Below, piece after piece: positions 8,901 to 27,822 of a stretch of 64,000 nucleotides of DNA (positions are counted from its first letter, which is position 1; every line of letters starts with the position of its first letter). The notes below the pieces were generated by a model. It did no database searches. It saw only the letters and a list, made by a program, of their open reading frames with translations, and was not told the DNA's origin. Position numbers and translations under genes: made by a program. The DNA comes from Diadema setosum (Eukaryota; Echinodermata; Echinoidea; Diadematoida; Diadematidae). The stretch is from positions 26,614,336 to 26,678,335 of the forward strand of contig CM067065.1 in the NCBI GenBank assembly GCA_033980235.1. Direction: 5' to 3'.

Positions 8901-11900
8901 TCGCATTATATTTTAAGCCTCCTCCCCAACTCGGAAATTTAAAAGGAAATGAAATAACTTTTTATTCCTGTGTCATGTTTCATTTATTCTGTGTGTGTGT
9001 GTGTGGGGGGGGGGGTTAAAAATAAACATTGAATTGTTGATTACATAAAGTGAACCAGCGTATGGAACTGCTGCAGCAAATGTTTTCGTCACTGAGTCAT
9101 TTCCTAATGCGTTTGAGGAATACATGATAAGAGAAAACACTTCAACAAATTAATAGATTGTGCAAACATAATGATGTCGATAAGCAAAAGAATTGAAGAT
9201 GACATGTTACATTGGAAAAAAAAAATATATATAAATCATTCGACGAGAAATGTAATGCAGTCATAGACTCGGAGATTCATGAAATATAGGAAACAAACAA
9301 GCAATTTTAATGATGAAATATTAAGGGAAATATTAAGTGGCCAGGATTAGTGTAAGTGTAAATCATGCATAGCCAAAGGTGTGTGTCATACCTGACAGGA
9401 CGTGTCATACCTGGTTTGACCTTGACTCGGTGGCTGCTGAAAGAAATTTACTATCCAGATAAGGGCACGTCAAACTGAAGCTCGAAAGGCTCGGCATAGT
9501 GAATACCCATAGGGCCAAGTCACCCCCCATCGAGGATCGAAGTTTAGAACCACTGATCCAGCTGTCAAATGATAACTTCAGATCTCGAATCTGCATATGA
9601 TAGCAAACAAACAAACAAACAAACAAACAAACAAACAAAACATATCAAACCTTCAAGAATGCTCAGGCTACATGAATCAGAGAGGTACTATAAAATAAAT
9701 ACATTTTCGACATCGTATGCTGGAAGTTCTCCTGAGGAACAGCAATATTGAACTTTGTTTTTAACAAATCCAAAGCGGAACTTTTGTTTTTTTTATCGTG
9801 ATGAGTTTTGATTTTAACTTCCTCTGTAGGTGCAGACATACCGCAAGTATCAGATATTGGGCCGAATGCATAAAACAAGCAGTTGCTTGTAAGCAATTGC
9901 TTCAAGGAAAAGCACAAGCTCGTCTAGCAAAAGGTCTAGCTGAAGCAATTGCTTAAATCCATATGCATAATCTTTTGCTTATGCCAATACCTTTTGCTTG
10001 TCCCGCACAAGCAATTGCTTGCGTTTTCAACAAAAGGGATGTCACACCTGTGCGAACACAAGAACAAAGGCTAGTGTGGCAACATGTATTTGAAAGGGCA
10101 TGTGTGTGTGGAAACATTTCCTGACATAGCAGAAGAGCTATGAAATGCACACACAGACACATACACACACATCTATACACACACACGTATTACTGGCTGA
10201 TTCGCATCACTGCAGCTTACAGCAGCCCGGATCTGCCAGATCGCACGTGGAGAGAGGTCTCCTCGCTCTCCACCTAAGTCAGACATCCTACTTGTTTTTC
10301 ATCACATTTTGCGTGCTAACCACTGGACATTCCCGTTGTTGAAATGAAAAAGTTTCTTACACTCCTTATGAGTAATTTCTTGTAGATTTATACCACTCCT
10401 TCACAAGTGTGGTCTTTCTTTCATAAATATGAAAATGATACTTCAAAGGGAACATTCCGGTTAAGCAAAAGCTCAAGCTCATTTACAGAGCTTGAAAAAT
10501 CGTACGCAATTGCTAGCAAGAACTAGCAAATGGTATGTTTTATGCATATGTTTTTCAGCAAATGCTTGGTCACTAAGCAATTGCTTGCGGGCAGCGAGCA
10601 ATAACTTGTGCTTGCTAGCAAAAGCTTCTGCTTGCAAGCAATTGCTTGTTTTTATGCATACGGATTCGAGTAAAAGGCTAGCACAAGCAATTGCTAGCGT
10701 TTATGCATTCGGCCCATTATCACAAATATATCAATACTCCCGCATACCAATCGTTGATGAAGAAAATATTATTTTCTCTGATCCAGATGGAAGTTTCCTG
10801 AAAACTCCAATGGTATCTCTCCATGAATGGACAAGAATGACAAAAATATTTCTGATTAGATATTAATCTTAGACCGTTGAGATGCATGTCACATATACAT
10901 GTATTGTTATTTGAAATGCCCCTCATTATATGATGGGTGAATGTCGGCAGCTTTAGAAATATAGAAAGAAAAATAACTGAGCATGCTACAAACTTGAAAT
11001 GACAGATACCACCCCGCGTCATGTAGTGTAACGGCAGTGGCAATAATGGAATCTATAGAACTATCATTATACAGATGGGATTAAAGGAGTTTTTCGCTCG
11101 TGATCATTTAACACGATTTACCAGTCATGCAAAGTCCTTCCTGTGGTCATAAGCCAGTAGAACAAAATAAAAATGTACATGTAGTGTATGTATTTCACAT
11201 TTCACACAGATGAATAAAACTAACTGATGCAAAACGTTTGCATCAATAATTATGACCATTTCTTTTTCTATCAAACGGAGTAATGGTACAGTTGTAGATT
11301 GAAACAAATATTCCCCTCACCGTTTTATTGTTTTTTTTTTTCAGAACGTCCAAGAGCTATGATGGGATGCACATCTTGACAAAAATTTAAAATTACTTGC
11401 AGATGCAGACTGAATTCAATGGATAATTGAGGAATCGTTCAACAGATAATATGTGTAAAATGGTGATAATTTATTTAAAAAAATAATAACAACGAAAGGC
11501 TTTAGAAACAATCCGTAGACTCAATAATGAATAAAACATAATAAGATGAGAATGATCAAAGTGCGCATGCATATTGATGATAAAGTGCATAGTGTGAATC
11601 ATTTATGGTTCAAAGTAACCTACCTGGCATGATAATGCTGACGCGCAGGCTGTTGAGAGAAATTTAGCGTGCAGGTAGGGGCATTCTACACTGAAGATCG
11701 AAAGACTCGGCATAGTGAACATCCATTTGGCCAAGTCAGCCCCCGTTGAGGAAAGATGTTTAGAACCAACATTCCAGCTTTTGAAAGACAAATTCAGATC
11801 TTGAACCTGTTTTTTTTTTTTTTAAGGACATACAGCAGCAATTGATTATAGAATGATGTATTGCACGATTCCAAGGTTCATAGAGCACGTGAAGTGTGAT

Positions 11901-14900
11901 TATATAAGTTGAAAAGGACCTTTCATTAAACAAAACATGCAACCGGAAAGAAAGAAAGAAAAAAATAATTATATACATTTCCTTCATATCCGCTTCTTTA
12001 TCTACTTTAATTGCAATTGGATTGGCTCCAGTTTCCATTTAGGAGAACATAATAATAATATTGACTATATATATATTTTTTTTTATATTGTTCAGGTTAA
12101 TATTTCATATCTTTTGTCGATGCAAAAATAAACAAAATTGCCACTCTGCAAGAGAGTTAAGAGAAAAAAGTGCAGCATATTTTCCTTTCTACAAAAAAAG
12201 AAGAAGAATTAAACAAATAGCCTCATGTGTGCTATGCGATTTGGTTGTGTGTGTCTGTATGTGTATTGATTTTGTGCAAGTAATTTTTTTTTTTGTTTTA
12301 TTGTTCAGGTTAATGTTTTATATCTTTTGTCGATGCAAAAATAAACAAAATTGCCACTCTACAAGAGAGTTAAGAGAAAAAAAGTGCAGCATTTTTTTCT
12401 TTCTACAAAAAAAAAATGAAACAAGTAGCCTTTTGTGTGTGTGTGCTATACGATTTGGGTGTGTGTGTCTGTGTGTGTATTGATTTTTACGAGTACAGGA
12501 GTGTCATGTGCTTGCAACCGTATAGACCTATTTATAATGAGTTCTGAAGATGTAAAGTTAAACCTGTCTATAACGGCCAACCAAGGAAAATAAGAAAAAT
12601 GGCCGGTATAGACAGGTCGTTGCTACTTTGAATTCCAACATTTGTGTAACAGTAGTTGTGTAACAGTATAAAATACCGCACAATATCCCCCCCCAAAAAA
12701 AAAAAAATAAAATAAAAAAATAAATAAATGAATGAATAAATGAATAAAAAAAATAAAAAAATAAATTAGAAACCAACCAACAAACAAAAGTAAAAAGTAA
12801 ATACGTTTGCATGTGCAGCAATGATATACGTTTTTGTTTGTTTGTTTGTTTGTTTGTTTTTTAAATTTCCTTCATTAATTTCATTATTTTTAACTCATTT
12901 GTTATAACGTTTCCAGAATGAGGGTTACTGCACTGGTTCGTACCGGTTTACATAAATGGGGTTCATGAATAGGTGTAAGGGAATTGATCTTGTTCGAAGC
13001 TGACGTAAGCGACGAACAATACCCAGACAACTACCATATTTTCCTTATTCAATTCACTAATTAATCGGCATTTTGGTAAAATTCTACGAAAGGATGTTAC
13101 TAGCAGCTACCTTTGCCCTTGTGGCTATTCAGGGCGACATTAAAGAAACATAGAGTTTGTCACACCCAACTGGACCCCATGAAAGACCAGCTTAAGGTAG
13201 GTGAATATGGGCTATAATTATCCAGCCATCTCTCAGATGGAAAATGAACAAACAAACAATCAAGTTACTGGTAAAACGGCTTTCCATGGCAAAGAGCTGC
13301 ATAAAGTTTTGTCAGTCATGTTTGTGTGATTGTGAACGAGTTAGGACTCGGGAGAATTCATGGCTGTTTTAACGATTTACTTTTTTTGTGTGTGTGGCCG
13401 CTATACGCAGGTAGATAGTCACCGCGGGTTACAAAATGAGTGGTGACATTTCTTGTATTCTTCTCAATGAAGTAATGTGGATGCCCCGATCTATTAAAAC
13501 AAATGTTGAGGAGAACATCTCTGCAATTGTATGGCAACAGACTAAGGTTGATGAGTAAAGGAAGAAGCATTGAAAAAATGCCTAAAAAGTGGAAATTGTC
13601 TGGCAAAAAAAGAAGAAGCTAAAACACAACATTATACAATGATCTATACGAGCTTTGCCTATTAGTGGTCAAATGTGAATCATGACACATCATTATGTCA
13701 TAGTCCACATCCTGGTCCAAAGTGACATACCTCACAGGATGATGCTGTGGCTGCGGCTGTTGAGAAGAAATTACCGTCCAAGTCGTCGCATTTCACACTC
13801 AAGGTCGAAAGATTTGACATGGTGCACACCCATAGGGCTACGTCACATCCTGTCGAGACTAGGTGTTGATTAAAGCTAGATATTGAGAAACTCAGATCTT
13901 GAATCTGCAGGGGGAAAAAACGAAAACATCGATGAACAGAATCTTAATCAATTAGGTCCTATAGAAGAAACGATTTGAATGAACGTAATTACACAAGGTC
14001 AATCACATGCAAAAGCTTACCACACCCCCTCAACTGCAATTAGTATACATTATCTGCCCATTTATTGCAACAGGTATATCACATGATCAAAGAAATCGGA
14101 CATTATACGATTTGAAACCACATTGTTTCAAGTCGTATACTTGTTTAAATGGAGAGGAGGATAGTGAGGTTAAGCTTTCGTCGTGTAAAAAATAAGTCGT
14201 GCGCTGCTCCTTTGAACTGGTCTAGTAGAAACCAATATAACTTAATAATCGAAATAATGACCTAACATATAAAACGTTTAGATTAGGAATGCCGCTTTCT
14301 GCCGTTTGTGTTGAAAATATGCATGGTAGCGACCCGCTAATACTTTGTGACGTGAAAAGCTACTATAATGACAATCACTCGGCATTCTCCCAACGGTATT
14401 CAGAGCTGCTGCAAATTCAACCTAAACGCCAACACTCCTAAACAAACTCCATCTATCTAGAAAAGTGATTAGTAATTTAAAAAAGAAATGCAACCAGAAA
14501 GCTCATCGCGATGACACCTCAGTACGCGATGGACCGCATCTTACTGCAGACTGCGAATTTTAATGGAGCAATATTTAAACAGCAAAATATACTAAAAAAA
14601 AAAAAAAACCAAACAAACAAAACCAAAAAAAAAAAAAACAGAAGAAATGATGAATGATAATAAATATAAACTTCATAATCAGGTTTTATTATTGCCCAAC
14701 GAATGATAGTCTCACTTGGTTGGATAACTATATCTCACGTTGTGGATGTGGAAAAAGCAAACTCAACACAGCATCCTCGTTACGGGGGATATCAGTCATC
14801 CTTAAACACTCCAGCTCTGCACATCAAAACAAGTATGCACATTTTGGTCACAAAACGTCTTATTCCAGTACGTACGTGTTGTTACCCTGTCTTAATCTGG

Positions 14901-17638
14901 AAATGTTGTCCACGTACGACTTTCGGCTCTTGAGCCATCTGATGATGCATAGACAAAACATGAAAACAAACAACAGAACAATCACGTGGTGTTGGACCAT
15001 CGCGAAATATCTTACCTGACAGGTCGAAGCCTGGTATGCCATGATCTTGTAAAAATCCGTGTGAATTTGTGAATGTGTTAATGTTACTTCTCGCAGCGCA
15101 CGACTCGAACACATCCCCTCCGCCAAGTAACGTGACAGGATTTTTCCACAGTCGACACGGTAAAGATATAATGATCGCTAATGGGAACGAACATGGTCAA
15201 AAGGTAAACGTTAAAGAACGCTGAAATAACGAAACATTTGTTCTGGAAGTAAAACTTGATGCATTTGATGCATCTTGGTCAACATCTCCTTCGTGAGTGT
15301 GTGTAGCTTTTGTTTTGTTTTGTTTTGTTTTGTTTTGTTTTTGAGAGTGGGGTGTATGGATGAGAGGGAATGGATTGCTACTTCAATTATCATGTTTTTA
15401 TTGAGGTTCCGATTATAAGACATGATTTGATCAACATGAAACTTTTACTTTTAAACACTTGTATAACACAAGCTTGTCCATCATGAGGTAGAGCAAAATA
15501 AACCTTTTTTTTATGATACTCCAGTTATAACATGACAAAGAATGTTTTAGAAGTTATGCTTAGAAAGCTCCTTTTATATTGATAATCATGACTTACATGC
15601 ATAACAAAAATTACTGCTGAATGTATCAAAAAAAAAATCAGGGGCAATTTCCTCTCACAATTGCTTAATGACAGGAAATTGTGTTTAAATCATGCCAAAG
15701 TAATTCTTGATTACATATATCCTTTATACTTTTAAACACTATCTTTATTTCAGAACAATTATGTCTTATACTACATAATGAGTTAATAATTATAGGTAAC
15801 GTCATTATAGACATTTTGCACTCAATTAAACAAAGACAAAGAACAAGACAGAAACTCAAAATTAATTCTCAAAAGTAACAAAGTATTACCAAATACTAGT
15901 TGGAGTCCATTTGCAAGTATGGTCACTCACCACTTGGTTACAGTGGACCATAAACACCACTCCTGACTTTGTATGTTCTGACATATTTTGGGATAGTCTG
16001 TATTCTTCCCATTGTTCTCCCACTGCTCTGGCGGCCTCCTCAGTATGGCATTCGAACGCAACGTCAACACAGTAATCACGGTCATTATCAAAATAATCAT
16101 CATCATCATAAATAATATGTATATCTGCGATTCTCATGAGATTACTGTTATCATCATCATCATAGTCACCGCTTCCATTATCTCTTGATACCCTGGTACA
16201 CTTTATCAAGCCGTCGACAATATCAAGCCCAAGTTCTTTCCCTAATGCTGAGACGAAGTAGAGTAGGTAGCGGAACTCCTGGTATCGAGGAAGAAGTATG
16301 AGCTTCAGCTCTTCGTACCTGGCACGATCGTTTGCATATATATTCGAAATATATAACCCTGCAACATATTCTTGGAATAATTTGTGGGGGAACGAAACCG
16401 TTGACACAACCAAAGATTTAGTGTTGACGTCGCGTCGACGTTCCCCTGTTGTGACAGCTCTTTCCATTGTCAGAACCCCGACTTTGCAGCATGTCTCCAT
16501 ATCATCTTGACATCCTCTGAATTGTTCTTCAGGAAATGAAAGCTGTTTATGCAACAAACCGTTTAGCGCTATCTCGCTTATATTTTGGATTGCACTACCA
16601 GCTTTCGTCAACTGCTCATCAATCGTTTGACTCTGTAGATTTTCGCATATTTTTGATGCGAAGTGTGCTTTCAGAAAAGAAATGATTTCTCCAAAAAGCT
16701 CAGAGAAAGTTTGCATTTTCTTCATTTCTTTTCGTCTATCTTCATTGAAGTCGTTCCACATCAGACAAAGCATTGCACAGTAGATAGGAAACGGGGCCAT
16801 ATTTTTCCGGATGATATCATTTTCTTCCATGAAACTGATTAAGCTTTCTGCAGCTAGGGAGTTATTTCCAAGCCGAAAATATGCTTTGATATATGTTGCT
16901 AAATTTTCCTTGTTGAATCCCTCGACGCTGATGAAAGTGTAAGCTCCGGCAAGAGTTTTCCTCAACTTGAAGTCATGACTTCGCCATGGTCGTGTGGTTA
17001 CTATTACCTTGCATGACTTATATATCTCTAATTCTAGAATGCAAACGACCACACTCCGGCTCTTTGCTTCTAGTTTCCCCTGGAACTCGTCGAAACCATC
17101 AAACACGAGAAGAATTTTATCTAGATTTGCTAAGATATAGGAGTCTATCTGGTCTGGTGTTGCCGCATTTGAATCGCACAGACATCTTTTCACAATACTT
17201 CCAATACTTTTGCCCTCAGTAACTTCCCGAAGAGGAATCACGATAACCATATCCATGTCGTTGAGAATCCTTCCCTGGTACCAGTCCCAGGCGATCTTAG
17301 CACAAAGCGTTGTTTTACCGACACCTCCCTCACCCTGGATCAGAATGCGCTTTGACAGATTTCCGCAATCACCAATGCCTAAAAGATCCTCGTACGTTAT
17401 CGGTGTTTTACTCATGTCACTTTGGTCTATTAGACTCAAATTCGTGTAAATATCATCCAAGTTAACACGCTCCATAAAGTTGAGTGGATCTACCGTGACC
17501 CTGCGTCGTGACAAACGGTAATACTCCTTCAGCTCCTCTTTGCATGTTTGAACTTGTTCCTTTGTAAGTGACGGTGAGATAGGTACTGACCCTTGGATAA
17601 GAAATAAAAAAGACAAAGAAAAGAGTGCATGACCAATA

Positions 17639-17684
<46 letters not shown>

Positions 17685-20600
17685 AATAGGAATGACGGAG
17701 ACGGACAGATTATCAATAAGTGTAGATCAAAATAACGTACCTAATATTAATATTGAGTAAAGCATTAGAAGCAGGTAGGTGTATGCGCTCTGGATCGCAG
17801 TGACGGGTGACAGCGCAAGACGCGGTGTGCTATTTCCATTGTCCATCTTCATTGTATTTTACATGCATTTTATTATGGAAGCAAAAGCAGATAGGGGAAA
17901 TATATGTATAAATATGCCGTAAACTTATTTCACCCTCTCTCCTTCCCTTTCAGTTAGCCTACTCTATATTTTAATAACAAATTTGCATTTGCCATTTGCA
18001 CTGTTGCATTATGAATCTGTTTAACTGTTTAGAGGTATGAAAATAAAAAATATCAGACACAAAAGTCCCCTCGAATGATTAGCAGGATAATACAACGAAA
18101 TCAAAAGTCATTTTCAAAGAAAGAAAAAGAAATTTTCAACCGATTTTTCAAGTTATTTTGAAATCCCCCATCAAAAAAAAGTGAAGTCTGTAAAGGACAT
18201 TTTTTTAATGTTATGCATCTCGAACTGAATATTTTTGGGCAATGACTGCAAAATATCTTTTCATTTCTTCTATTTATTAGACAATACAAAAGGAAAAGTC
18301 TGATGACATACCTTATATGTCCGTCTAAAGGAAAAATCAACACAAAACAAAACAAACAAACTCTCAGAATGTCTTATCGTTTTGGTGAACTTTAGCATTG
18401 TTTTCTGCATGCACACAAATAGGGGGGGACTAAATACATTTGGTCATTTGTATTACAACTCAGGATTTTACAAAATGACATGATACCTCGACATCCTCTT
18501 CGTTGAAAATAAACAAACAATACATTTTGGATCTGTTCTTGGATCTTAATCCACTTAACTCTACAGCATGATATTTTATAACCGATTACAGTCTGACCTT
18601 AAAACAAAAAAACAAAAACAGAAACAAAGTAGAGCTAAAAAAAAAAAAAAACAGGTTGCGATGTTGGCAAGAAGAAGAAGACATTGTTCATTTCATACTC
18701 AGCATCAAATCTTCTTCCTCTTCAAATTGCCTAAGTCTGTGTGGACCAGGTCTCCGCCAGAAGGGATTCCAGCCACATCCTGTAAAATATTTCAACAGCA
18801 GAAGCAGAGATATAGTTGTGAACAAAATTTGTACTGCATCACAAAGCCAACAAAAAGTCGTCATGAATGGATTTTTAGTATTAAAATGCCAAATTAAAAA
18901 AAGGACATGCTTTCAGCTGTAAAATGATGTGTAGCACACTACAAATAGACCTTCTTTAACTTGTCGAAATAATGGGAAAATTGTTTACCCTCTGAAAAAG
19001 AAGGTCTATTCAAGCGCTTCTGCTTCCTTTAAAGAAGATTAATCGATACATTATTACCTAAAATATCCAAGAGTTTAGTGTTGCAGCGTTATACACATTT
19101 TGACACTGCATGTAGGTCAGTTACTTTTATAAGGAACGTGTCACCCTACCATCGCACACACATACCAACTTTCGTGGACCTACATAATTATACATGGATG
19201 AGGAGAAAAATAGTGGAAAGAAGGGGGGGGGGGAATCACACCTTTTCTTGGGAGGTGATACGGATGGTATTTTTGCAGAAACCTCCCAACAAGGATGAAT
19301 AGCATGAAAGCTGCAGCAGGTAAACTGATTAACAGTCCAATTATGAGACCAATGTTGTCTGCTTTTCCTGCAATTGCATATGGACATAGAAGGAGATGTG
19401 AGTTACTTGATTTTAAGAAGGCATGAAAACAGGGAAAAATATTTCAGTAGCCTCTCATCAACTTAGTCTGCGTAATGATCATGTCTCTACCTAGGTGTAA
19501 CCGTTTCATAAAACAAAATCAGAACAAAATTTAAATGTACAGAAGCACGTTGCAAATAGTACATAGTTGCATGGCGTATGACACTTTCATCTTATATTTG
19601 ATGAAATTAAGTGAAACTTTTCTTGTATGCTTGTGCCAAAGTAAATGATCGATAGATGCAATACCGCTGGTATCCTGTAACTTTGAATGACAATTTTCCA
19701 AACTTTATAGAAGGTGGTTTAAATTGACGCGGATGTCTAGTAGAAAAAGGGAAATTTGAATGTATTGTCAGGTAAATTACCCTCTCAGATCATACTTCCC
19801 GATAGTAATCACAGAGAAAAAGATAATATTCCGTTGATGACTTGAGCCCCGTTGTTACAAACTTTGCATTCAAATGCAAAGCAGCAATTGCGTTACTGAA
19901 AGGACTTGCGCTTGATTCCGTGCACAAATATCAAACTCAAAGTTTCATTTCATTCGTAATAGTATATTCTATAAAATTTCTAACAAAGCATTAAAAAATG
20001 GCACAGTGATCACCAGTATCCTAAGGTTGTTTTCACGTACAACGACATAATGTATTAAAATCCCTTTAAATACCATATTCAAACATGTCAAAATATAAAC
20101 ATACATCAGTTTGAGAATATGTCTGTTAAAAATCCATGCCACTAATCTCATTGCAGATAAAGTGATCACTTTTGTCCAACAAATCGATTTCAATACGTTA
20201 CAAGGCAGACTGTAGGTACGCAGGGTCTGCGCTGTCAGGGAGGGTGCTTTCAAGGATTTAACTCATCATAGATGCGAATTTACCCATCCCCCCCCAAAAA
20301 AAAAAAAAAAAAAAAAAAAAAAAACAACACAACAACAACAACAACAACAAAGAAACAAACAAACAAACAACAGCAGAGTTGTGTGTATTTTAAGTAACAT
20401 AATAATTCAAAGTTTCACAGAACTTAACTCAGTTTTATAGAACTGATTACAGTTCTATGAGATTGAATTTACTCATTATATCAAATGATTATATAGAACA
20501 TTTCTGCGTACTTCTCACATGTTATTATTGTAATCATTTTCTGCAATGAACATACGATGCGCATTCTGTTCACATGAATATAATATTTTGGGGTGTACTC

Positions 20601-23600
20601 AGACTTAGGTTCGTCCAATATGATTGAATTCCAAATAGTGAACGAACATCACACGTAAATTACTACCAACAACAAGGCCTTTTTTCAGGAAAGGACCACA
20701 AGAATCAAAAGCAACTTTCGGACAAACTTGCATTGATGAGAAGTTGATTTTAATCGCAAGTCGAGTTCATAGCTTCAACGGGGACTATTTGCAAATCTTA
20801 TTAGTATTTACGATATAACATCTAGAAATGTAAAATCAACATCGTTTCAATATTAAAACCTGATAAAGGCAGAAGGGTGATTTCTTTGATCGACGTTCCA
20901 TTCAGCGAGTCACCGAAAGCTATGCACATGAAGGTTAGCTCTGTCCCGTGTTTGACTGAAACAGTGATTGTCTCGAACCTCTCGTATGTGTTGTCTGGTA
21001 GTGTTGTCTGCCGAGAATCCACAGAATTTAATCTCTCTCCAGACTCTGTGGCCCAAAACATGGACGCGTTAGGCTTAAACTCACTCAAAAGACACGTGAG
21101 TGATATAGACGGCGTGTCGAAGGAAGTTTGGTATGTGCATCGTCTGTGGTAGAAGTAACTGTTGTTCTTTTCGTCGCATTCCTCGATTGCATGTCTTGAT
21201 GCCATCGCTGCAGATAAAAGGAAGCCATACATGCAATTAAGTATTTAATATTCAAACTGATGTTTGTTTCTGTATTTTTCTTTTTTTCCGGGGGGGGGGG
21301 GGGGGGGTGGGGGGCAATGCATATATCAATCTCAAGCAGTCTGAGAACACTTTATTTCTGTAATAGAAGCAGAGTTTGATATTTACAATATGGTTGGTTT
21401 GTTGTTGTTTTGTTTTTGTTGTTGTTGTTGTTTATCTTAGTATCCAATGCAAGAGCTCATTGACAATGTTGGTGGCTTCATAGTTGACAATGCATCACAA
21501 TACCAACAAACCATGGCTTGGCCTGATTTTTCGGGATGATTCAAAATAAGTGATTTTTGCGTCAAATAATTTGATTACATATTTTTTTTTTTCATTTCAC
21601 ACATGCATGTTCACATGCATGTTCTTTTTTATTTTCATTTCCATGAAACAATGATGTTGCTACTTTCACATTTGGTGTTGGTTATGAATAAATTGCACTA
21701 TTAGAGAATGATACATTTCAGAATGCGGAAATACTCCGGCGCTTCTTCTCTCAGTAATCTTTTTTTTTTTTTTCCAGTATATGTGATGTCTTTCCATTAT
21801 TAGGTAAGATTATGGAAGTCTATTCTTATTGAGCTATTATAGAAGGCCTGTTACTGTATTATGCCATTTTAAAACACTGAGTCTCCTCTTTTATGATCTA
21901 CCCGTAAAAAAAACCAAAAAAAAAACAAAAAAAAAAAAACAATCTCAGGGGATATTCTAGCGGTTTTGTTTTGCAGGGTAGAAGTTGTTCTCCCTTGTTT
22001 ATGCACAGGACTTCCAAGCTGGTGATTACTTAAAAAAAAAAAAAAAAACAAACACTATTCACCAAAGCAATGACTGCGGATGTTTTGCTGGCTATGGCAT
22101 AACACAATATGGTTGTATGGTATGGAAAGAACGTTTCAGTAATGGATTAGAGTGGCAAAATATTAAAAGTTAATAACAATATGGAAATGGAAATACTACT
22201 GCTATAGAACTGGTCTTCGAACTGTTATGTCCCTCGTTGCGCTATCCCTATACGTCATTCCTATCCCCGCATAGAAAAAAAAAGCAAAGTAAATCGAGAG
22301 AAAACGGTGTAAAGTTTATAACTAATGTATATAATCAGTGAAAAAAGACAACAAAATTGTCATTAAATCATTGTATTTCAGCAGCTCTCAAGCTGAATCA
22401 GATGGTTTACGGACAAGTTACCCTGCAGTCACAATTCCCAAATTCTTCGTGCGCTTTCCCCATACTGTTACCTTCAAGTCACTTTAATATTTTGCAAATC
22501 AATTCGTGAAAAAAAAAATATATATATATATCCTTTCCTCATAGAGCAACGGTGGTATGATATAACAAATGGTTACTTACAGCTGACCTTCAGTTGGGTC
22601 GACTTCTCGAATGTTTCGAAATTCTTCAGGACCACATGACAAAGGTACAGACCCTCATGTGCCACCGTCAAGTCGGTGATGATGAGGCTAAAGTTCTTGT
22701 CGATGTCGAACCCTTTCTCCCAGCTCATGAATTTACCGTCTATGAAATCAGCCTTAGTCGTCCTTAGTCGCTGATGTAAGACGCTCTCCTTAAGCCAAAC
22801 CACAGCTTCAGGATCCCCTTGGAAATGACATGGTAGTCGGATGACTTTCCCTCTCCATCCCTGAACGGTGCCCATCACTGATAATACAACGATTGAAATT
22901 TGAGTGCTTTCAAATTTTTCGACTTCTTCACGTATAGTCCATTATTTCTTTAAAACCTGCTACTCTACAAATGGAAGATCTTAGACATTGAACATGATCT
23001 ATGATACATCAAATCTGAAAAAAAGGCAAAAACAACACAAAAGATAGAATCAAAACACAAAAAACACAAACAAAACACGCTTAAATCCAGCTGATCATTT
23101 TCATTAAACGCGCGTTTAGAAATGCATTACAGTTATTGTAATTATAGCAACCCTATAATTGAATGGAGTGTGTGGCCCTTAATCGATTACGTCTGTACTC
23201 TACCAAAATCATATGTTTTTGTTGTTGTGTACCTTGCCTACCATTACGGTAAAGTCTTACCCCACCTCATTGCAACCTAATTAAACGCCGTGCGACAAAC
23301 ATTTCTGTCAACGCGAGCGATAGTGTGACTGTAATATGAAATTGTACTTGTGTTACAGCATTGCAAGTGCATTTTCAACTTTACTTGCAGTTAACCTTAC
23401 AATTAAAAGAATACTGCATATAATCCTTAACACCTAGGCCTATTTCATGCATGTAGTATTTATTCAGTAGATTGTCGTGTGTCGATTTTTTTTGACAAAG
23501 TCAGAGTTGAGCTGGCGTGAAGTAAAGCAATATTTGATTGTCGTCCCACCATGGCTCCTCTATTGCTATTCCCACCCTCAAAGAATGTTTAAACGCATTA

Positions 23601-26600
23601 ACTTTTAACAAGATATTTAAAAGGTAAGCAGTTAAACAATATTGTAAGGTGTCAGGACCCCTTTTCAAGTTCACTATTGAGATCTTTTCACATCAGTCGG
23701 AAAACAAATCCACGTTCTATCTATTTTTCTCGATCACAAATCAGCGCGCCAATTCACTTCCCACGAGCCCAAAAAGAATTAGGTCGAAAATTTGTTCGAG
23801 CTATTTTCGGTATATTTCGCCTTCAAACACTTACCCGCGCCGACAGGCTCGATCTGGCGCAATCCGCAGCGAAGTACAGGTATCACACGCTGGGCAAGAT
23901 GGCATGTATCGCATTATTACCGTAATCGGGTTAATTTCCGAATTAGAAATAGTGTAATATAAAGAAATGTTGCGCTGATGTAAAAAAGACCTAGCATGCG
24001 TAACTATTCCTATTCAGTCTGAATGTTTACAAATTTATCATTAGCAATATAATATAGGTCTGTTTTAAGAATGTGTAAGTTCAGAAATTGCAACCAGTTC
24101 TCGAAATTATTTCCTGACTTTGGAAGGCGACGTTACGTTAGTATTTTAAGATTTAAGTGGTGTAACGTTACTTTCAAGAAATGAGGAAAGGATAGAAGTC
24201 TTTAAAATAACTTCGACATTTCTGACATTTCTTACAGACCTAAGTTTAAGGTTACAGGTTTATGCGATTAGTATCATTTGAGCGAATTTAAATAAATTAG
24301 CTTGCCGGAATGTTCTCTGCCAGCTTGGTTATGAGTTCAAGAAGAGAGAGAGAGAAAAAAAAAGAAGAGGAAGAAGAAGGCTAATATAGGAAAAATTGCC
24401 ATTGATTACATCCAACTGACACAGTTTGGGTAGCCTACTCGTCAGTTTAGAACCAAAAGACGAAACCTATGTCGGGTAAGCTCTCATTCCACCCCCCTCC
24501 CCCCCCACCCCCCCCCCCCCACACACACACACTCACATCATCTCCTGTATTATGAAGTTGCCGTTACAATACCTTATAGGTTATTTTTCCCCCTTTTCTT
24601 CATCATGGGGATTTTTTTTCATGATCTTCAAAATATTTCTTTACAACTATCTTTTATTTCATAAGTTGAGAGGAAAGAGTAACGAAAAAAAATCTGTCTT
24701 TATAACACAAATAATACAATTTCAAGAACACCTTTTTTTACACCTCTCAGGTCAGTCTTCAGTGCGAAAAAAAAAAAATATTATATCCTTTTTACCACAG
24801 CTTTGGGGAACACGCATGTGGTCCCCCGACCCCTGAATGAAGGGGACAGTCATCTCCCTGATGATACTATGACCAACACTACACAATAGTACCGAATTTG
24901 AAATGTACAATGTATACATTATACGAGATCATTTTCAACAATTTTCTGTGATTTTTATACCGTTCCAACCTAACGCATGTTTTTCACAAGACGCGTTAGG
25001 TTCAGAGTTCATACAGGAATTCACACAGCTAAGCATTATAGAAAGCAATCCCAGCGCATTGTGTATGTAGTCAGCTTTGTAGAACACGACACAATTGTTC
25101 CAGAACAGGATTATTGTCTTCAATGTCTCTGTGCAGGTCTCTGTGTGCATTAAAGGGGTATTCCAGACGATTTTCGTAATTTTACATCATGTAGTACAGC
25201 TGCTCCATGTATAGATTCGTGAAATTATTGTGCTCTTTGAACAGAGAAACAATACTCTGAAAAATCTGAAACAAATTACACTGAACAGTGTTGATGACAT
25301 AGGAGCCTTACGTATTTGAGAAATGTAGCAGTGTAATTCCATTACAATACCACTTGATTGACAAGTTAACCTGTGTAGAATGTATGCATATCTTCTTCTT
25401 TTGTTCTGCTTCCTTGAGCCTCAACTCATGCATTCTTATGGTGAGGCTGCCATGTCATCATCCTTGTTCATTGCAATTTGTTACAAATTTTGGAAGCATT
25501 TGTATTCCCCATTCCAATCACTGTAAATTCTGAAATTCTGTACTCAGTATAAGTAATTTGTAGTTGTTGAAATGTAATAATCTGAAAATCATCCGGAGGT
25601 CTCCTTTAAATTCGCACGCGAATTCCACTCAAAGGTAGTAAGCAAATAATCATCGACTGCGAGGGCGATGGGATAATCTAACATCGCCAAGGTGATCCGC
25701 GATGTGTCTTTCAGGACCCCCCGAGCAGAAGTCGAGGGCTGATAGACTCCTCAAGCATCACCGAGGCAATGGTGTATCCATTGCCCGAGAAATAGGAGAT
25801 GATTATTTGCTTTATATCCCACATCGATTGACCAACTAGAGATTTCAGCAAAATATACTCAACCATGATGTAGATATTTATTGTATGATCGTGCTGGTGT
25901 GGTTGCACAGTACAACCACGGTCCATTGCGCGGCGGCAGTGGAATGAGAGATCTGCAACTGTACGGTAGATCTAGGATGACAACAAGCGATACTGATGTG
26001 TCGATAATTGTGCGATGTGCACGAATGTGTGCCACTATAGAACTTGGTAGCTACTCGCGTGGCCGATAGATGCGAGCGATACCTTTATCGGTTCCACGAT
26101 TGCGGGTATGTAAAATGTGCTAACTAAAAGACTATCACAAAATTATGTGAAAGTACCATGTATGTTTGGAGAAAAACAGCTCTCGGTCACGTGTTCCAAA
26201 TTCAAGTAATCCAAAGGCCAAACATACTTATGTGGGATATGAATGCAAATAAGCACATCATTGTAAATTATGTAGCGTCCTACACCGTAGTTCTACTATT
26301 GCGATTCACTTTTCTGTGGCAGTTATATTACTTGCTGACTCCCACAATAAGCCAGCTCGTAATGAGGTCATGTACATGTTGATACAAATGACTTTTCTTT
26401 TTTATTAGTTGGTAAGGCACTTCACTCGTTTCAAAAGTGAGAAAATGCATAAGCTTGCCCGACGTAACAATTTATGGAAATCATTATTCAAACAAAGAAT
26501 GAATTGGCTTTTCGACCAGCAGGTGACCATAAGGGGTCAATTGAAATTTCAGAAGGCATCCATTTCATTGTTTTGTATTGAATGCATTAACAATATTTTC

Positions 26601-27822
26601 TTTTGATATTGCCAAATACCAGGCTTGCTGTTAGGTGGACGTGGTGGCAAGCACCATTTATATCAATAAGATTATACGTAATTAATCATTACATTACAGA
26701 TGCTTATCTCAGTAAATTAAGAAACCAAAATGCCTGTTTGGACAAATGATCTTTTTCTACTCATGCACAAAGTGGAATTACGAGTTCGTCTATTCATGTC
26801 AGATTATAACATGATGATATCTGGCAAATACTTTTATTAATTTTTATTTCACCATCCTTCAAATTTGATCTCTTGTAACCTCACATTTTATCTTGATGGA
26901 CTAAGACACATTCTATGAAAATAACAAAAGTTATACAGCATAAATACACATGACATAGCAACACACTATTGTGCATTTGCATGGTAACACTAACATAGTC
27001 CAAGCGTACCACGAAATGTAATACAGATAGACTAGACTGAGCTCTAAATTTTGATTGGCTCTGTCGTTTAAAACATGCCTATAAAGTGAAATCATTTACA
27101 GGTTAGGGCTCGACAACCTGTTACGCTAGTGTAGGACCATTATTTTGTCCTTGTTTACTTTGCTGTGTTTCTGGTTTGTCTACTCTCCTTTTGTTGACGG
27201 TCTAGACTTTGTAGGCCTATTAGTTTGCATTAGTTTGCTTTTAAGCACTGCCTTGCATTCTGGCATTAATCAAGTTAAGTTAATGATATTCAGTTGTCAC
27301 CTCCATGACCATCACTTCAGATACCTTTCCTCTTCTTCAGTTTTGTTACCTTCATTTTTCTCTATTCAGGTGTGTTCATTCATTTCATCCCACACCTGAT
27401 TCTTGAGTTGAGCCAGACAGCTCCCATTATTACGTAATCACCCCTCCTGCTTTCATCATCTCATGCTCGTCGTTACTTATTGGTTGATTTATTGAAAGAC
27501 TCCTCCATTTTATTGAAGTCCTCCATTCCATTCAGTTCTTTTGGTTGTTGTAGATAATTTGAATATATGTAAATATTGGTTTATGTAAATTAATTATGTT
27601 CATCGAAGTTTGCTGAGGGCGAGTTGTCCTCAGTATGAAGTCAGTCGCATATATTTTGAACACTACAACTGATGGCCTTAACGCTATTTCGACACGCTAC
27701 ACTGGACTGGAGAGCGTATGTGTATGTGCATACATAGAGTTACACTTACCTTCTGCACCGGGGTCACAGAACACAGCAACAGTCACTGTTAGTAGCAGAA
27801 CGAGGTCGTATCTTCTATCCAT
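1240..27822 (-). CDS. Gene A model: signal peptide-Ig-Ig-TM-NACHT-LRR receptor (spliced, 3' end off window)
   Basis: This model joins 15 exons read from the sequence: 27750-27822, 22581-22877, 20860-21207, 19242-19367, 18699-18779, 15931-17591, 15016-15177, 13731-13904, 11624-11806, 9411-9590, 4941-5123, 4423-4605, 3429-3611, 1786-1956 and 1240-1297. Every acceptor is AG and every donor GT, and all phases agree (phase 1 through the NACHT acceptor, phase 0 afterwards). The spliced frame is open for about 1,350 codons. The product would be a type I membrane protein with two extracellular Ig domains and a cytoplasmic NACHT ATPase followed by LRRs. NACHT-LRR proteins are innate immune sensors that oligomerise on ATP binding. 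The Ig ectodomain replaces the usual DEATH/CARD effector domain. The joining of Ig/TM exons to the NACHT exon is inferred from strand, order, spacing and phase; no transcript is available. The alternative is two neighbouring genes, an Ig receptor and an NLR. Confidence 0.72.
1298..1785 (-). other. Gene A intron 14
   Basis: This 488-bp AT-rich intron lies between two LRR exons. No repeat or second exon was recognised. Confidence 0.6.
1786..1956 (-). CDS. Gene A exon 14: LRR unit
   Basis: A 57-codon exon in phase 0-0, from acceptor TTTCTTCAG to a donor after TGTAAA. It begins ISRFSMAIFSGR and contains LAQFLCRMPQLECADITC, then ends SNCK. The layout (strand-loop, LxxxLCxMPxLxxxxxxC, FFxxxA, xxCK/Q at the donor) is the same as in the other LRR exons, so each exon carries about two leucine-rich repeats. 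ECADITC is shared with the gene B exon at 45420-45596 (ERADITC), marking this as the penultimate unit in both paralogues. Ribonuclease-inhibitor-like LRRs in NLRs form the ligand-sensing or autoinhibitory solenoid. Confidence 0.8.
1957..3123 (-). other. Gene A intron 13, downstream part
   Basis: AT-rich intron sequence with a GT microsatellite at 2956-2985. The reading frames here have no LRR or other domain pattern. No further feature was seen. Confidence 0.55.
2956..2985. repeat. (GT)n microsatellite
   Basis: An uninterrupted run of GT dinucleotides of about 30 bp inside a gene A intron. Confidence 0.9.
3124..3358. mobile_element. MITE with perfect 33-bp terminal inverted repeats (GACCCAAGTCC family)
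   Basis: The left end TGAGTATATGAATATAAG is followed by AACGACCCAAGTCCA. The right end is its exact reverse complement, giving 33 bp of perfect inversion around an AT-rich core of about 170 bp with no coding capacity. Two related copies lie at 5613-5799 and 5861-6108. The element lies in intron 13 of gene A, 71 bp from the next LRR exon. Confidence 0.88.
3429..3611 (-). CDS. Gene A exon 13: LRR unit
   Basis: A 61-codon exon in phase 0-0 (acceptor TTGCCCAG, donor CAG|GTAAAC). The frame begins IQHLTLNIRVLDD, contains EDLAQWVCSMTRL and VSFSLQC, and ends APSCQ at the donor. These are the recurring landmarks of the LRR exons in this gene, two repeats per exon. No stop or frameshift was seen. Confidence 0.85.
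3612..4422 (-). other. Gene A intron 12
   Basis: About 0.8 kb of AT-rich sequence with no recognisable repeat family or extra exon. Confidence 0.55.
4423..4605 (-). CDS. Gene A exon 12: LRR unit
   Basis: A 61-codon exon in phase 0-0 (acceptor TCTCTACAG, donor AAG|GTATGT). It begins IQDLNLSFANRDGGSKLQ and contains NLTQWVCDMPHLSKFSL, then ends ASASPCK. It is very similar in layout to the exon at 4941-5123, from which only about 335 bp separate it, so the pair probably arose by local exon duplication. Confidence 0.88.
4606..4940 (-). other. Gene A intron 11
   Basis: A short intron (335 bp) with a C-run/A-run at 4671-4690 and an (AAT)n stretch near 4701-4714. Nothing else was recognised. Confidence 0.55.
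4941..5123 (-). CDS. Gene A exon 11: LRR unit
   Basis: A 61-codon exon in phase 0-0 (acceptor CCTACAG, donor CAG|GTAGGT). It reads IQVLNLSFNRWGGSSILR, then SDLAQWVCNMPNLSRFSL, and ends ASVCQ. It is a close paralogue of the exon at 4423-4605. Confidence 0.88.
5613..5799. mobile_element. MITE, GACCCAAGTCC family, diverged copy
   Basis: The left end TGAATATAAGAACGACCC pairs with a right end that reads on the minus strand TGAATGTAAGAATGACCC, followed by AAGTCC on both sides. It matches the termini of the element at 3124-3358 with two mismatches. The core is short and AT-rich. Confidence 0.8.
5861..6108. mobile_element. MITE, GACCCAAGTCC family, with duplicated left end
   Basis: The left terminus contains the block ATTCAAAGAACGACCC plus AAGTCCA twice in succession (about 5866-5890 and 5894-5918). 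The right terminus carries TGGACTTGGGTCGTTC. The element lies about 60 bp from the preceding copy, in the same intron. Confidence 0.8.
6856..7307 (+). repeat. Tandem direct duplication, 232-bp offset
   Basis: The block TTATGGTCAAAAGAAGAAAA ... TTCATTATTTTGCAAA occurs at 6856-7075 and again at 7088-7307, apparently without a mismatch over about 220 bp. The copies are separated by 12 bp of (TAA)-like sequence. This suggests a very recent event or an assembly artefact. It is non-coding and intronic. Confidence 0.9.
7308..8110. other. Unassigned intronic sequence, possibly part of a degraded element
   Basis: The block CAGTCAGACCGCAGCAC at about 7431 recurs inverted at about 8091-8106 (GTGCTGCGGTCTGACTG), so 7423-8110 may be an old inverted-repeat element. 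It has more CpG than its surroundings. The reading frames inside have no recognisable domain. Confidence 0.3.
8111..8340. mobile_element. Small inverted-repeat element containing degenerate telomere-like repeats
   Basis: The ends carry GGGGCAATTACCCC twice at the left (8126-8156) and GGGGTAATAGCCC plus GGGGGTAATTGCCC at the right (8295-8322). The interior (about 8207-8285) is a run of TTAGGG and variants (TTAGGA, TTAGGTT, ATTAGGG). The element is bounded by GTGGCAGAAC (8111-8120) and GTGGCAGAAAC (8330-8340), which look like a target-site duplication of about 10 bp. Removing the element rejoins the flanking sequence. Confidence 0.72.
8331..8870 (-). pseudogene. Degenerate LINE reverse transcriptase relic
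   Basis: On the minus strand the fragments VPQGSIVGSLL and, about 30 codons later, LYADDAKLCF are visible. Both are hallmarks of the RT palm domain of non-LTR retrotransposons (the second holds the catalytic YADD). Upstream, near 8640, comes an eroded SIDL-KAFDTV-like stretch. Frames are broken throughout. It is an old intronic insertion, itself hit by the MITE at 8111-8340. Confidence 0.65.
9411..9590 (-). CDS. Gene A exon 10: LRR unit with duplicated splice donor
   Basis: A 60-codon exon in phase 0-0 (acceptor CATATGCAG, donor CAG|GTATGAC). It begins IRDLKLSFDSWISGSKLR, contains GDLALWVFTMPSLSSFSL, and ends with the unusual SRSNQ instead of the family's SCQ. Just downstream on the minus strand CAGGTATGACAC occurs again after GTCCTGT. 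Reading through to that second donor would hit an in-frame TGA, so the first donor is assumed. Confidence 0.82.
9591..9858 (-). other. Gene A intron 9 start, with (AAAC)n run
   Basis: An (AAAC)n microsatellite at about 9605-9639 directly follows the acceptor of exon 10 in genomic order. Nothing else was recognised. Confidence 0.6.
9859..10715. mobile_element. Inverted-repeat element built of AAGCAATTGCTT motifs
   Basis: The left end GGGCCGAATGCATAAAACAAG is matched by the right end, whose plus-strand sequence ends TTTATGCATTCGGCCC. Both subterminal regions (9880-10025 and 10470-10700) are filled with the palindrome AAGCAATTGCTT and variants, such as AGCAATTGCTAGC and ACAAGCAATTGCTTGC. No transposase frame is present. 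The core holds a (CA)n-like run around 10146-10190. Confidence 0.78.
10716..11623 (-). other. Gene A intron 9, downstream part
   Basis: AT-rich sequence without recognisable repeat, exon or RNA gene. Confidence 0.5.
11624..11806 (-). CDS. Gene A exon 9: LRR unit
   Basis: A 61-codon exon in phase 0-0. The acceptor is a poly-A/T tract ending ACAG; the donor is CAG|GTAGGT. It reads VQDLNLSFKSWNVGSKHL, then ADLAKWMFTMPSLSIFSV, and ends ALSCQ, following the family layout throughout. Confidence 0.86.
11807..13730 (-). other. Gene A intron 8
   Basis: A 1.9-kb intron. It contains the tandem duplication at 12075-12500 and an A-rich/AAAT tract at 12695-12790 with AAAC/GTTT runs to 12860. The rest (12861-13730) shows nothing recognisable. 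Confidence 0.55.
12075..12500 (+). repeat. Diverged tandem duplication, about 220-bp unit
   Basis: The block TATTGTTCAGGTTAAT, then CTTTTGTCGATGCAAAAATA and GTTAAGAGAAAAAAGTGCAGC, occurs near 12087-12177 and again near 12299-12390. Both are followed by a related TGTGTGCTAT/CGATTTGG segment. Several substitutions separate the copies, so it is older than the duplication at 6856-7307. Confidence 0.8.
13731..13904 (-). CDS. Gene A exon 8: LRR unit
   Basis: A 58-codon exon in phase 0-0 (acceptor CCCCCTGCAG, donor GAG|GTATGT). It begins IQDLSFSISSFNQHL, contains CDVALWVCTMSNLSTLSV, and ends ASSCE at the donor. It is slightly shorter than its neighbours (58 versus 60-61 codons) but has the same landmarks and an uninterrupted frame. 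Confidence 0.85.
13905..15015 (-). other. Gene A intron 7
   Basis: A 1.1-kb AT-rich intron with A/C-run sequence at 14592-14640. No additional exon or repeat family was recognised. Confidence 0.5.
15016..15177 (-). CDS. Gene A exon 7: first LRR unit
   Basis: A 54-codon exon in phase 0-0 (acceptor GTTCCCATTAG, donor CAG|GTAAGA). The frame reads RSLYLYRVDCGKILSRYLAE, then CSSRALREVTLTHSQIHTDF, and ends ASTCQ. It is more diverged than the others, as expected for the first repeat after the NACHT module, but keeps the LRR spacing and the terminal STCQ. The start was set by the upstream ATTAG acceptor, which gives phase 0; a later AG (GCGGAG) has no pyrimidine tract. Confidence 0.78.
15178..15930 (-). 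other. Gene A intron 6
   Basis: A 0.75-kb intron following the NACHT exon, AT-rich with a (TTTTG)n run at 15308-15341. Nothing else was recognised. Confidence 0.6.
15931..17591 (-). CDS. Gene A exon 6: NACHT NTPase module
   Basis: One 1,661-nt exon encodes about 553 residues. After a charged linker comes a complete STAND-type NACHT domain: Walker A GEGGVGKTT at exon residues 87-95, the Walker B/NACHT signature FDGFDEF around 164-170, sensor-1 TTRPW at 199-203, and the winged-helix motif FPHKLFQEYVAG at about 401-412. All key nucleotide-binding residues are intact. NACHT modules bind ATP/dATP and drive NLR oligomerisation. The acceptor (CTTATCCAAG) gives phase 1, and GTGAGTG after CAAGTG ends the exon in phase 0. 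Residues 476-505 include two Asp-rich stretches encoded by a GAT-type trinucleotide repeat, which is unusual. No DEATH/CARD exon lies upstream; instead an acidic exon, a TM helix and two Ig exons precede it in matching phase. This is a member of the expanded NLR family of invertebrate deuterostomes. Confidence 0.95.
17641..17682. repeat. (TA)n microsatellite
   Basis: An almost pure TA run of about 40 bp, 50 bp upstream of the NACHT exon acceptor within intron 5. Confidence 0.9.
17683..18698 (-). other. Gene A intron 5
   Basis: About 1 kb between the juxtamembrane exon and the NACHT exon, AT-rich. No DEATH-fold or other domain exon was found in any frame. Confidence 0.55.
18699..18779 (-). 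CDS. Gene A exon 5: short acidic juxtamembrane exon (tentative)
   Basis: An 81-nt exon candidate between an ATTTTACAG acceptor and a GTATGA donor, phase 1-1. It reads CGWNPFWRRPGPHRLRQFEE followed by EEDLML. Phase symmetry means it can be included or skipped without shifting the frame: the TM exon also ends in phase 1 and the NACHT exon starts in phase 1. It would lie just inside the membrane, basic then acidic. The donor is only moderate, and no homologous domain is recognised. Confidence 0.5.
18946..19016. repeat. Hairpin-forming inverted repeat
   Basis: AATAGACCTTCTTT at the left is repeated inverted as AAAGAAGGTCTATT at the right, separated by about 43 bp. It could be a very short MITE remnant in intron 4. 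Confidence 0.6.
19242..19367 (-). CDS. Gene A exon 4: transmembrane helix and stop-transfer
   Basis: A 126-nt exon in phase 1-1 (acceptor AATTGCAG, donor AAAG|GTGTGA). The frame gives KADNIGLIIGLLISLPAAAF, then MLFILVGRFLQKYHPYHLPR. About 24 consecutive hydrophobic residues are followed by a basic segment (GRFLQKYHPYHLPRK). That is a textbook type I single-pass membrane anchor, with the Ig side outside and the NACHT side in the cytoplasm. It lies directly after the last Ig exon, as is usual for Ig receptors. Its first codon is completed by the G left by the Ig exon. Confidence 0.82.
19368..20859 (-). other. Gene A intron 3
   Basis: A 1.5-kb AT-rich intron with a poly-A plus (AAC)n tract at 20290-20370. 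No other exon or repeat was recognised. Confidence 0.55.
20860..21207 (-). CDS. Gene A exon 3: second Ig domain with extra N-terminal cysteines
   Basis: A 348-nt exon (116 codons) in phase 1-1, from acceptor TTATCTGCAG to a donor TCAG|GTTTTA. The Ig core is visible: ISLTCLLSEF (B-strand Cys), MFWATESGE (C-strand Trp), an ITVSVKHGTELTFMCIAFGD stretch (F-strand Cys). The fold looks C1/C2-like. An N-terminal extension EECDEKNNSYFYHRRC adds two more cysteines. Three NXS/T sites (NNS, NAS, NGT) support an extracellular location. The donor is weak (GTTTTA) but gives the phase required by the TM exon. Confidence 0.82.
21208..22580 (-). other. Gene A intron 2
   Basis: A 1.4-kb intron with a G homopolymer at 21291-21307 and several A/T runs. 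No other feature was seen. Confidence 0.55.
22581..22877 (-). CDS. Gene A exon 2: Ig V-like domain
   Basis: A 297-nt exon (99 codons) in phase 1-1 (acceptor ATTATCAG, donor AGCT|GTAAGT). The domain has the B-strand Cys in VIRLPCHFQGDPE, the C-strand Trp in AVVWLKES, and the canonical F-strand LTVAHEGLYLCHVV (a variant of D-x-G-x-Y-x-C). Length and motifs match a single Ig V- or I-set domain. Phase 1-1 single-exon Ig domains are the standard shuffling unit of Ig receptors. With the signal peptide upstream it would be the membrane-distal domain. Confidence 0.9.
24487..24536. repeat. C-run plus (CA)n microsatellite
   Basis: Several C homopolymers with single interruptions are followed by ACACACACAC. 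Confidence 0.85.
25151..25609. mobile_element. MITE with imperfect TIRs (TTAAAGGGGTATTCC type)
   Basis: The left end TAAAGGGGTATTCCAGACGA is matched by the right end, which reads on the minus strand TAAAGGAGACCTCCGGATGA. Both are followed by TTTTC. The interior of about 400 bp is AT-rich and non-coding. It is a non-autonomous DNA transposon by structure; the superfamily is not determined. Confidence 0.7.
27750..27822 (-). CDS. Gene A exon 1 (copy 1): signal peptide
   Basis: A 73-nt coding segment from ATG at 27822 to a strong donor GAAG|GTAAGT, ending in phase 1. It encodes MDRRYDLVLLLTVTVAVFCD followed by PGAE: a basic N-terminus, a hydrophobic core and a small-residue end, a typical secretory signal peptide. 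The phase fits the Ig V-like exon 4.9 kb downstream. A near-identical exon at 37921-37993 has the same length, start context and donor position, which confirms both the start codon and the boundary. Confidence 0.85.

Follow-up and report, generated by a model that had tools for sequence, protein, structure and literature searches.

A candidate membrane-anchored NLR with an immunoglobulin head in the sea urchin Diadema setosum

Introduction

NLRs are usually described as cytosolic proteins. A stretch of 64,000 nucleotides from the sea urchin Diadema setosum (GenBank assembly GCA_033980235.1, contig CM067065.1, positions 26,614,336 to 26,678,335 of the forward strand; hereafter the window, in whose own numbering all positions are given) raises the question of whether an NLR can be anchored in the membrane, with immunoglobulin (Ig) domains outside the cell and a NACHT ATPase and leucine-rich repeats (LRRs) inside. 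A first-pass annotation of the window had assigned a signal peptide, two Ig domains, a transmembrane (TM) helix, a NACHT exon and LRR exons to one gene, so that an outside ligand could trigger NLR assembly. We conclude herein that the locus probably encodes an NLR-class receptor anchored as a type I membrane protein, in which a cleaved signal peptide, a V-type and a C1-like Ig domain, a TM helix and a linker would precede a cytoplasmic NACHT-LRR part. Exon order and phase were read from genomic DNA and from homologous proteins, and the locus is known here from its sequence alone.

Parts of this plan have been described elsewhere, as far as the available portions of the following papers go. In the sea cucumber Apostichopus japonicus, AjNLRC4 (2021) carries two Ig domains outside, a TM helix, and a NACHT inside, with neither LRR nor CARD; it sits on the coelomocyte membrane, its Ig part binds microbes, and after Vibrio it dimerises and is internalised, its intracellular part contacting actin (PMC8699970). 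A second protein of that species, the membrane protein AjNLR-new, likewise unites Ig, TM and NACHT (PMC13133943). In Chiridota heheva (2022), an Ig V-set is among the domains of six NLRs "with other domains" (PMC8913654), and membrane NLRs with predicted TM helices are reported from sea anemones (PMC5094078) and sponges (PMC12909245).

Results

Exon order at the locus

Along the minus strand of the window, successive exons encode a signal peptide, a V-type Ig domain, a second Ig domain, a TM helix, a linker and a NACHT domain, and eight LRR-type exons follow. The first six are these.

27750..27822, minus strand: exon 1, start codon and signal peptide MDRRYDLVLLLTVTVAVFCDPGAE; donor GTAAGT; ends in phase 1; family profile 8.6e-12
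22581..22877, minus strand: exon 2, Ig V-set domain with a Cys, Trp and DEGLYLC core; phase 1-1; Pfam V-set 2.1e-12; family profile 3.9e-40
20860..21207, minus strand: exon 3, second Ig domain, C1-like by some paralogues; phase 1-1; family profile 6e-53
19242..19367, minus strand: exon 4, single TM helix with a basic inner flank; phase 1-1; family profile 1.7e-19
18699..18779, minus strand: exon 5, juxtamembrane linker GCGWNPFWRRP...EEEEDLML; phase 1-1; family profile 1.2e-7
15931..17591, minus strand: exon 6, NACHT ATPase; opens in phase 1 and ends in phase 0; Pfam NACHT 2e-25; family profile 7.8e-270

All of these elements lie where the first-pass annotation had placed them. The introns are of the GT...AG type, and exons 1 to 5 finish in phase 1, matching the phase-1 opening of the NACHT exon. 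The intact motifs claimed for that exon are present in its open reading frame, namely Walker A and B (GEGGVGKTT, FDGFDE) and TTRPW, together with FPHKLFQEY. LRR exons had been placed in the same gene as well; eight do follow in phase, but outside the interval 15931-27822 given for the gene, spanning 15177 to 1768. They are listed here against P0001, the closest protein, also from D. setosum (98% identity over 506 aligned NACHT columns); homologous proteins are named by such P numbers throughout.

15016..15177, minus strand: LRR-type exon 1, RSLYLYRVDCGK...; phase 0
13731..13904, minus strand: LRR-type exon 2; phase 0
11624..11806, minus strand: LRR-type exon 3; phase 0
9411..9590, minus strand: LRR-type exon 4; phase 0
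4941..5123, minus strand: LRR-type exon 5; phase 0; acceptor at 5123; not in the P0001 model
4423..4605, minus strand: LRR-type exon 6; phase 0; not in the P0001 model
3429..3611, minus strand: LRR-type exon 7; 92% to P0001
1768..1956, minus strand: terminal LRR-type exon, ending ...VNMKTK and a stop at 1768; 100% to P0001

The first thirteen joined exons, LRR-type exon 5 being taken one codon short, translate with no internal stop, and the full chain would comprise about 1340 residues by count from the gene model, about 240 of them outside the membrane. Hydropathy reaches 1.83 in the signal peptide (from residue 7) and 2.70 in the TM helix; no second TM helix was found after the NACHT domain, these two segments being the only ones to reach 1.6 in the 1041 residues scored, which include three of the eight LRR exons.

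Family profiles were seeded with the exons of the window and built from the homologues that those queries found. They match all head exons and the NACHT exon in order along the window, from the signal peptide through the NACHT, and for that reason the order of domains is not due to chance; chance alignment was ruled out by the Pfam and family-profile matches together. The family NACHT profile also matches NLRP3, at 6.9e-16. An N-terminal death-fold effector, usual but not universal in NLRs, was not found, and the Ig-TM part occupies its place. No convincing death-type exon was detected in the window (best profile match E 0.36). The idea that such an exon within the window is the real 5' partner of the NACHT exon was also considered and rejected, the sole tblastn match (0.044, at 29909-29694) having failed to recur.

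The LRR exons could not be taken as proven by Pfam, which found no LRR in any of the four homologues scanned. They are called as such because the predicted structure of a paralogue shows an NLR fold with ribonuclease-inhibitor-like LRRs, and by that model C-terminal LRRs appear to be present in this NLR. The second Ig domain of the window, taken alone, scores 0.009-0.05 in Pfam, below all cut-offs. The C1-set cut-off of 21 bits is exceeded by the second Ig of P0111 (49.4 bits), P0118 (23.6), P0132 (22.8), P0140 (25.3) and P0146 (30.3), and not by that of P0009, P0147 or the window. A V-C1 Ig pair, as suggested by those five proteins, would be notable in an echinoderm.

Identity to P0001 amounts to 94.8% in the second Ig, 96% in the linker, 100% in the first part of the NACHT exon, 99.1% in the NACHT core and 83-93% in the LRR exons other than the last. 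In the last part of the NACHT exon it is 83.6%, with gaps (91% over the whole exon), because an in-frame acidic insert of the window is missing from the P0001 model. This insert, a GAT repeat reading DYDDDDNS...YDDDDYFDND, lies late in the exon, at about 16200-16070 on the minus strand.

The family in Diadema

Family members are models predicted by NCBI, and counts of homologues refer to the 120 listed of 160, P0001-P0118 being Diadema by name and P0119 and P0120 Strongylocentrotus. Ig-Ig-TM-linker-NACHT runs contiguously in 51 of the 120, all Diadema by name; 33 of the 51 start with a signal peptide, and 45 run on into LRR-type repeats. Counted by presence, NACHT occurs in 117 of those listed, both Ig domains, TM and NACHT in 69, the linker in addition in 58, and the signal peptide also in 36; the first Ig, TM, NACHT and LRR are combined in 52. 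Seventy-one matches at E up to 10 were obtained with the Ig-TM-linker part alone, and 25 with the first five exons joined into a short query protein, every one of them from Diadema. Distant relatives may be missed, because these searches require shared five-letter words. The recurrence of the same Ig-TM-NACHT order in many paralogues of two Diadema species supports the architecture at the level of sequence, and the coupling of an Ig head to NACHT-LRR that had been proposed for this gene is thereby partly supported; the P0001 model, weighed below, omits the signal-peptide, first-Ig and TM exons. Several D. antillarum models bear isoform names, which in NCBI models are taken to reflect RNA evidence.

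Mean pairwise identity across the 51 contiguous proteins comes to 0.62 for the first Ig, 0.75 for the second, 0.61 for TM, 0.70 for NACHT and 0.62 for the linker; it is 0.47 for LRR (45 proteins, best repeat of each) and 0.62 for the signal peptide (33 proteins). The invariant columns in the alignment of the first Ig hold a Cys, a Trp, an Asp, a Gly and the second Cys, and the remaining columns are variable. This pattern, which is one of identity and not a test of selection, fits recognition by the first Ig and the LRRs. Between TM and NACHT, the motif [DE]xxxL[LIMV] occurs in 51 of 80 proteins as against 4.9 in shuffles, part of the excess being due to shared descent, and a cysteine is found there in 70 of the 80.

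Possible exchange of heads and tails

A NACHT tree was drawn from 116 rows including the window, P0087 and P0115 being left out as too partial. It is a quick tree with no bootstrap, and its class labels come from a text pattern, which labels P0036 and P0104 "short" although they look death-type. The window and P0001 fall in a mixed set of 13 (five Ig-TM, five death-type and three short; support 97). The Ig-TM group needs 16 changes on the tree, of which starred branches force 13, with no single clean origin, a count inflated in part by the admixture of "short" models. With Ig-TM set against death-type only, at least 3 changes are needed. Together, the mixed set and these last changes suggest an exchange of the N-terminal module.

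Tails were counted in 147 fetched proteins, sampled with queries from this gene and including some models that look fused. Of the 104 that combine an Ig with the TM part, 81 have a NACHT tail, 5 a GTPase-like and 5 a Rolling-stone-like tail, and in 13 none was recognised. The Ig-TM-linker head is annotated before a P-loop GTPase-like tail in P0141, P0147, P0132, P0111 and P0130. Pfam MMR_HSR1 scores 5e-4, 4e-4 and 0.011 in the first three, each falling slightly short of the curated cut-off, and P0111 and P0130 are GTPase-like only by likeness to the tail of P0141 (1e-21 and 6e-8). Head Ig domains also stand before a Rolling-stone-like multi-TM protein in P0118, P0139 and P0145 (PF21534, 2.5e-11 to 1e-14) and in P0136, P0138 and P0140, which match the tail of P0118, P0140 having no Pfam match; these models could be true fusions or joined neighbours.

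Alternative readings

A number of observations, here and under the first two alternatives below, weigh against a single membrane-anchored product. Codon use scores 0.00 bits per codon in the TM exon and 0.03 in the linker exon, and the wrong frame outscores the right one in the signal-peptide, TM and linker exons, all of these being small samples. The donor of exon 3, GTTTTA, looks weak, and the second Ig and the linker have a low-confidence fold in the predicted structures. The linker motif [DE]xxxL[LIMV] is a putative endocytosis signal, by its resemblance to the acidic dileucine type. The family models, moreover, are predictions, and P0015, P0023 and P0118 look fused.

One alternative, which we regard as improbable, is that the locus makes two transcripts, one for a short Ig-Ig-TM protein that continues past exon 5 into a stop and poly(A) of its own, and another for a separate NACHT-LRR protein with its own hydrophobic N-terminus, starting at the ATG of the following exon.

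17741..17852, minus strand: rival first exon for the NACHT, MKMDNGNSTPRLALSPVTAIQSAYTYLLLMLYSILILG; ATG; donor GTACGT; ends in phase 1

This exon lies 150 bases upstream of the NACHT exon, and its codon use is coding-like: no more than 2% of 411 open windows from introns reach the same value. Left unspliced, exon 5 gains SMK and then a stop, with AATAAA at 18278. Ig-TM forms lacking NACHT are annotated, P0129 (311 amino acids) stopping just past the linker and P0133 apparently in the read-through of the TM exon, and 28 of the 117 NACHT homologues have neither the Ig nor the TM part. However, the 51 contiguous homologues cross the linker-NACHT junction, with P0003, P0027 and P0050 as multi-isoform genes; P0001 itself joins exon 5 to the NACHT; and the rival exon has no match above the inclusion threshold, nor any clear homologue, among the fetched proteins (best profile value 0.032 over the whole protein, best blastp 0.28). 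A separate short orthologue of exons 1-5 was sought and not accepted, none of the 25 matches to that query (lengths about 171-544) being near-identical; the best were one of 63% across 84% of the query length and one of 69% across 32%.

It is also unlikely, in our estimate, that the main product is cytosolic, exon skipping having left the second Ig, linker, NACHT and LRRs with no signal peptide or TM helix, although one gene may give both surface and internal forms. Such is exactly the form of P0001. Its NCBI model begins with MASRH within exon 3, passes from exon 3 to exon 5, and lacks the signal peptide, first Ig, TM exon and two LRR exons; the annotated orthologue is therefore neither secreted nor membrane-bound, and the profile matches of the window for signal peptide, first Ig and TM rest on paralogues. 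Either the exons were missed by the annotation or they are truly skipped by the gene, and skipping would be in frame for each of exons 2-5, since all are in phase 1-1. P0044 and P0083, like P0001, join the second Ig directly to the linker, the TM part is missing from 9 of 87 models with Ig and NACHT, and P0021, P0078 and P0112 retain the TM but not the first Ig. Nonetheless, models lacking TM may be annotation slips. The MASRH/MASKH start falls midway in a conserved stretch of full-length paralogues, TM is present in the other 78 of the 87, and the TM exon of the window is open and matches the paralogue profile well (1.7e-19).

The butyrophilin plan consists of a V-C1 head, a TM helix, a juxtamembrane part and an internal sensor. 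Inside-out signalling of that kind, with the LRR or NACHT sensing a cue inside the cell that the V-C Ig head then shows to another cell, is in our estimate very unlikely here. In its favour, the top Foldseek match of the ectodomain is the BTN2A1-BTN3A1 complex (E 5.8e-6), though at a TM-score of 0.23 and a root-mean-square deviation of 15.2, and Pfam butyrophilin Ig-C is above cut-off in P0111 and P0146 and among the weak matches for the second Ig of the window (0.009). Against it, T-cell receptors, antibodies, B7 and JAML show the same fold resemblance, the comparison list for the ectodomain model testing mainly the first Ig; no sign of a partner receptor was seen; and the AjNLRC4 data favour outside-in binding. 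The window does share with BTN3A1/BTN2A1 a V-C1-type head (V-set in the window, C1-set in paralogues only), a TM helix, a juxtamembrane part and a putative internal sensor. Butyrophilins carry a cytoplasmic B30.2 where the Diadema receptor has NACHT-LRR, and Pfam scans of three window exons, P0009 and P0003 gave no B30.2/SPRY. We retain the membrane-anchored Ig-TM-NACHT-LRR receptor as the probable product.

Neighbouring sequence

Farther upstream, a second candidate first exon and pieces of other genes were noted.

37919..37993, minus strand: second signal-peptide-like exon, MDRRYNLVLIIALTSSLSCGLAEE; donor GTAGGT; phase 1; family profile 1.6e-4; codon score -0.01

No Ig exon was found between it and 27822, and it is either an alternative first exon or a relic of a neighbour. 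Three LRR-type exons on the minus strand (63548-63384, 49973-49794 and 45569-45423) are probably the tail of a neighbouring NLR, its NACHT beyond the window, in a tandem cluster. Open reading frames at 51726-52711 (minus strand) and 57872-60913 (plus strand) look by eye like pieces of a LINE reverse transcriptase/endonuclease.

Discussion

According to the first-pass annotation, no receptor class described so far was known to share this exact order. That statement holds only narrowly and is wrong for the most part, since AjNLRC4 is already Ig-Ig-TM-NACHT and Ig V-set NLRs are known from Chiridota; the exact order with an LRR tail was not encountered in the portions of the reports available. 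AjNLRC4, compared here by its published description, has an Ig-like and an Ig domain, TM and NACHT in the same order and no CARD (SMART prediction in PMC8699970). It is reported to lack LRRs, whereas eight LRR-type exons follow in phase here, and to have a second TM after the NACHT (776-795) with residues 1-482 outside, whereas the Diadema chain has one TM and a shorter outer part. Because neither the LRR absence nor the second TM of AjNLRC4 is matched here, the Diadema gene is not taken as its orthologue. AjNLR-new is described with the NACHT outside, the Ig inside and two TMs, the reverse of the topology proposed here (PMC13133943). The available text on Chiridota heheva describes no TM or topology for its Ig V-set NLRs (PMC8913654); an Ig V-set is frequent in Diadema models.

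Anemone membrane NLRs carry 3-5 N-terminal TMs (PMC5094078), and no Ig-NACHT combination was seen in the accessible portions of the anemone and sponge membrane-NLR reports (PMC5094078, PMC12909245) or of those on oyster, ctenophore and sponge (PMC9646362, PMC11797021, PMC6208332). A partial survey of the open-access literature returned no report of the order Ig-Ig-TM-NACHT-LRR or of such Diadema genes. What is new here is thus an LRR-bearing, expanded Ig-TM-NLR form in Diadema, the Ig-Ig-TM-NACHT plan being already known in echinoderms.

Nearer at hand are the death-type NLRs of echinoids, P0119 and P0120 of S. purpuratus and P0114, P0116, P0055 and P0068 of Diadema. Their NACHT is homologous, and by profile they too have an LRR-type tail (P0116 being too short to show one), but they have a death-fold-like N-terminus in place of the Ig-TM part. 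PF00531 is listed for P0114, P0116 and P0119; P0055 and P0068 gave no Pfam death match and are called death-type only by likeness to each other.

By analogy with AjNLRC4, it is plausible that an outside ligand drives a cytoplasmic NACHT. The Ig-TM head would replace the death-fold-like N-terminus of other Diadema NLRs, in a single transcript and at the cell surface, and its variable Ig part would meet a ligand, microbial or cell-borne. Clustering might then gather the NACHT modules, and ATP binding would stabilise an oligomer beneath the membrane, while the LRRs may hold the receptor in check or sense a further cue from within the cell. The linker motif might send the complex into endocytosis. 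Because there is no death-fold domain, the output proposed is probably uptake or cytoskeletal rearrangement and not a classical inflammasome.

More tentatively still, and as something we hold possible rather than probable, Diadema may possess a modular system in which one diversified signal-peptide/Ig-Ig/TM/linker head, its phase 1-1 exons open to skipping, has been shuffled mainly onto NACHT-LRR, and also onto GTPase-like and Rolling-stone-like tails, in exchange with death-fold-like N-termini. One published sea-cucumber protein links an outside Ig to an inside NACHT; this locus suggests dozens of such models in another echinoderm class, and the Diadema models keep LRRs and carry a V-C1-like head. 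The locus would make testable both the direct switching of a NACHT by an extracellular Ig and V-C1-like diversification in an animal without antibodies. Mass die-offs have struck Diadema, which lends practical interest to its surface immune receptors. If the modular system is real, animals that lack antibodies would have assembled a surface receptor set with many members, each coupling a V-C1 head straight to an NLR-type engine.
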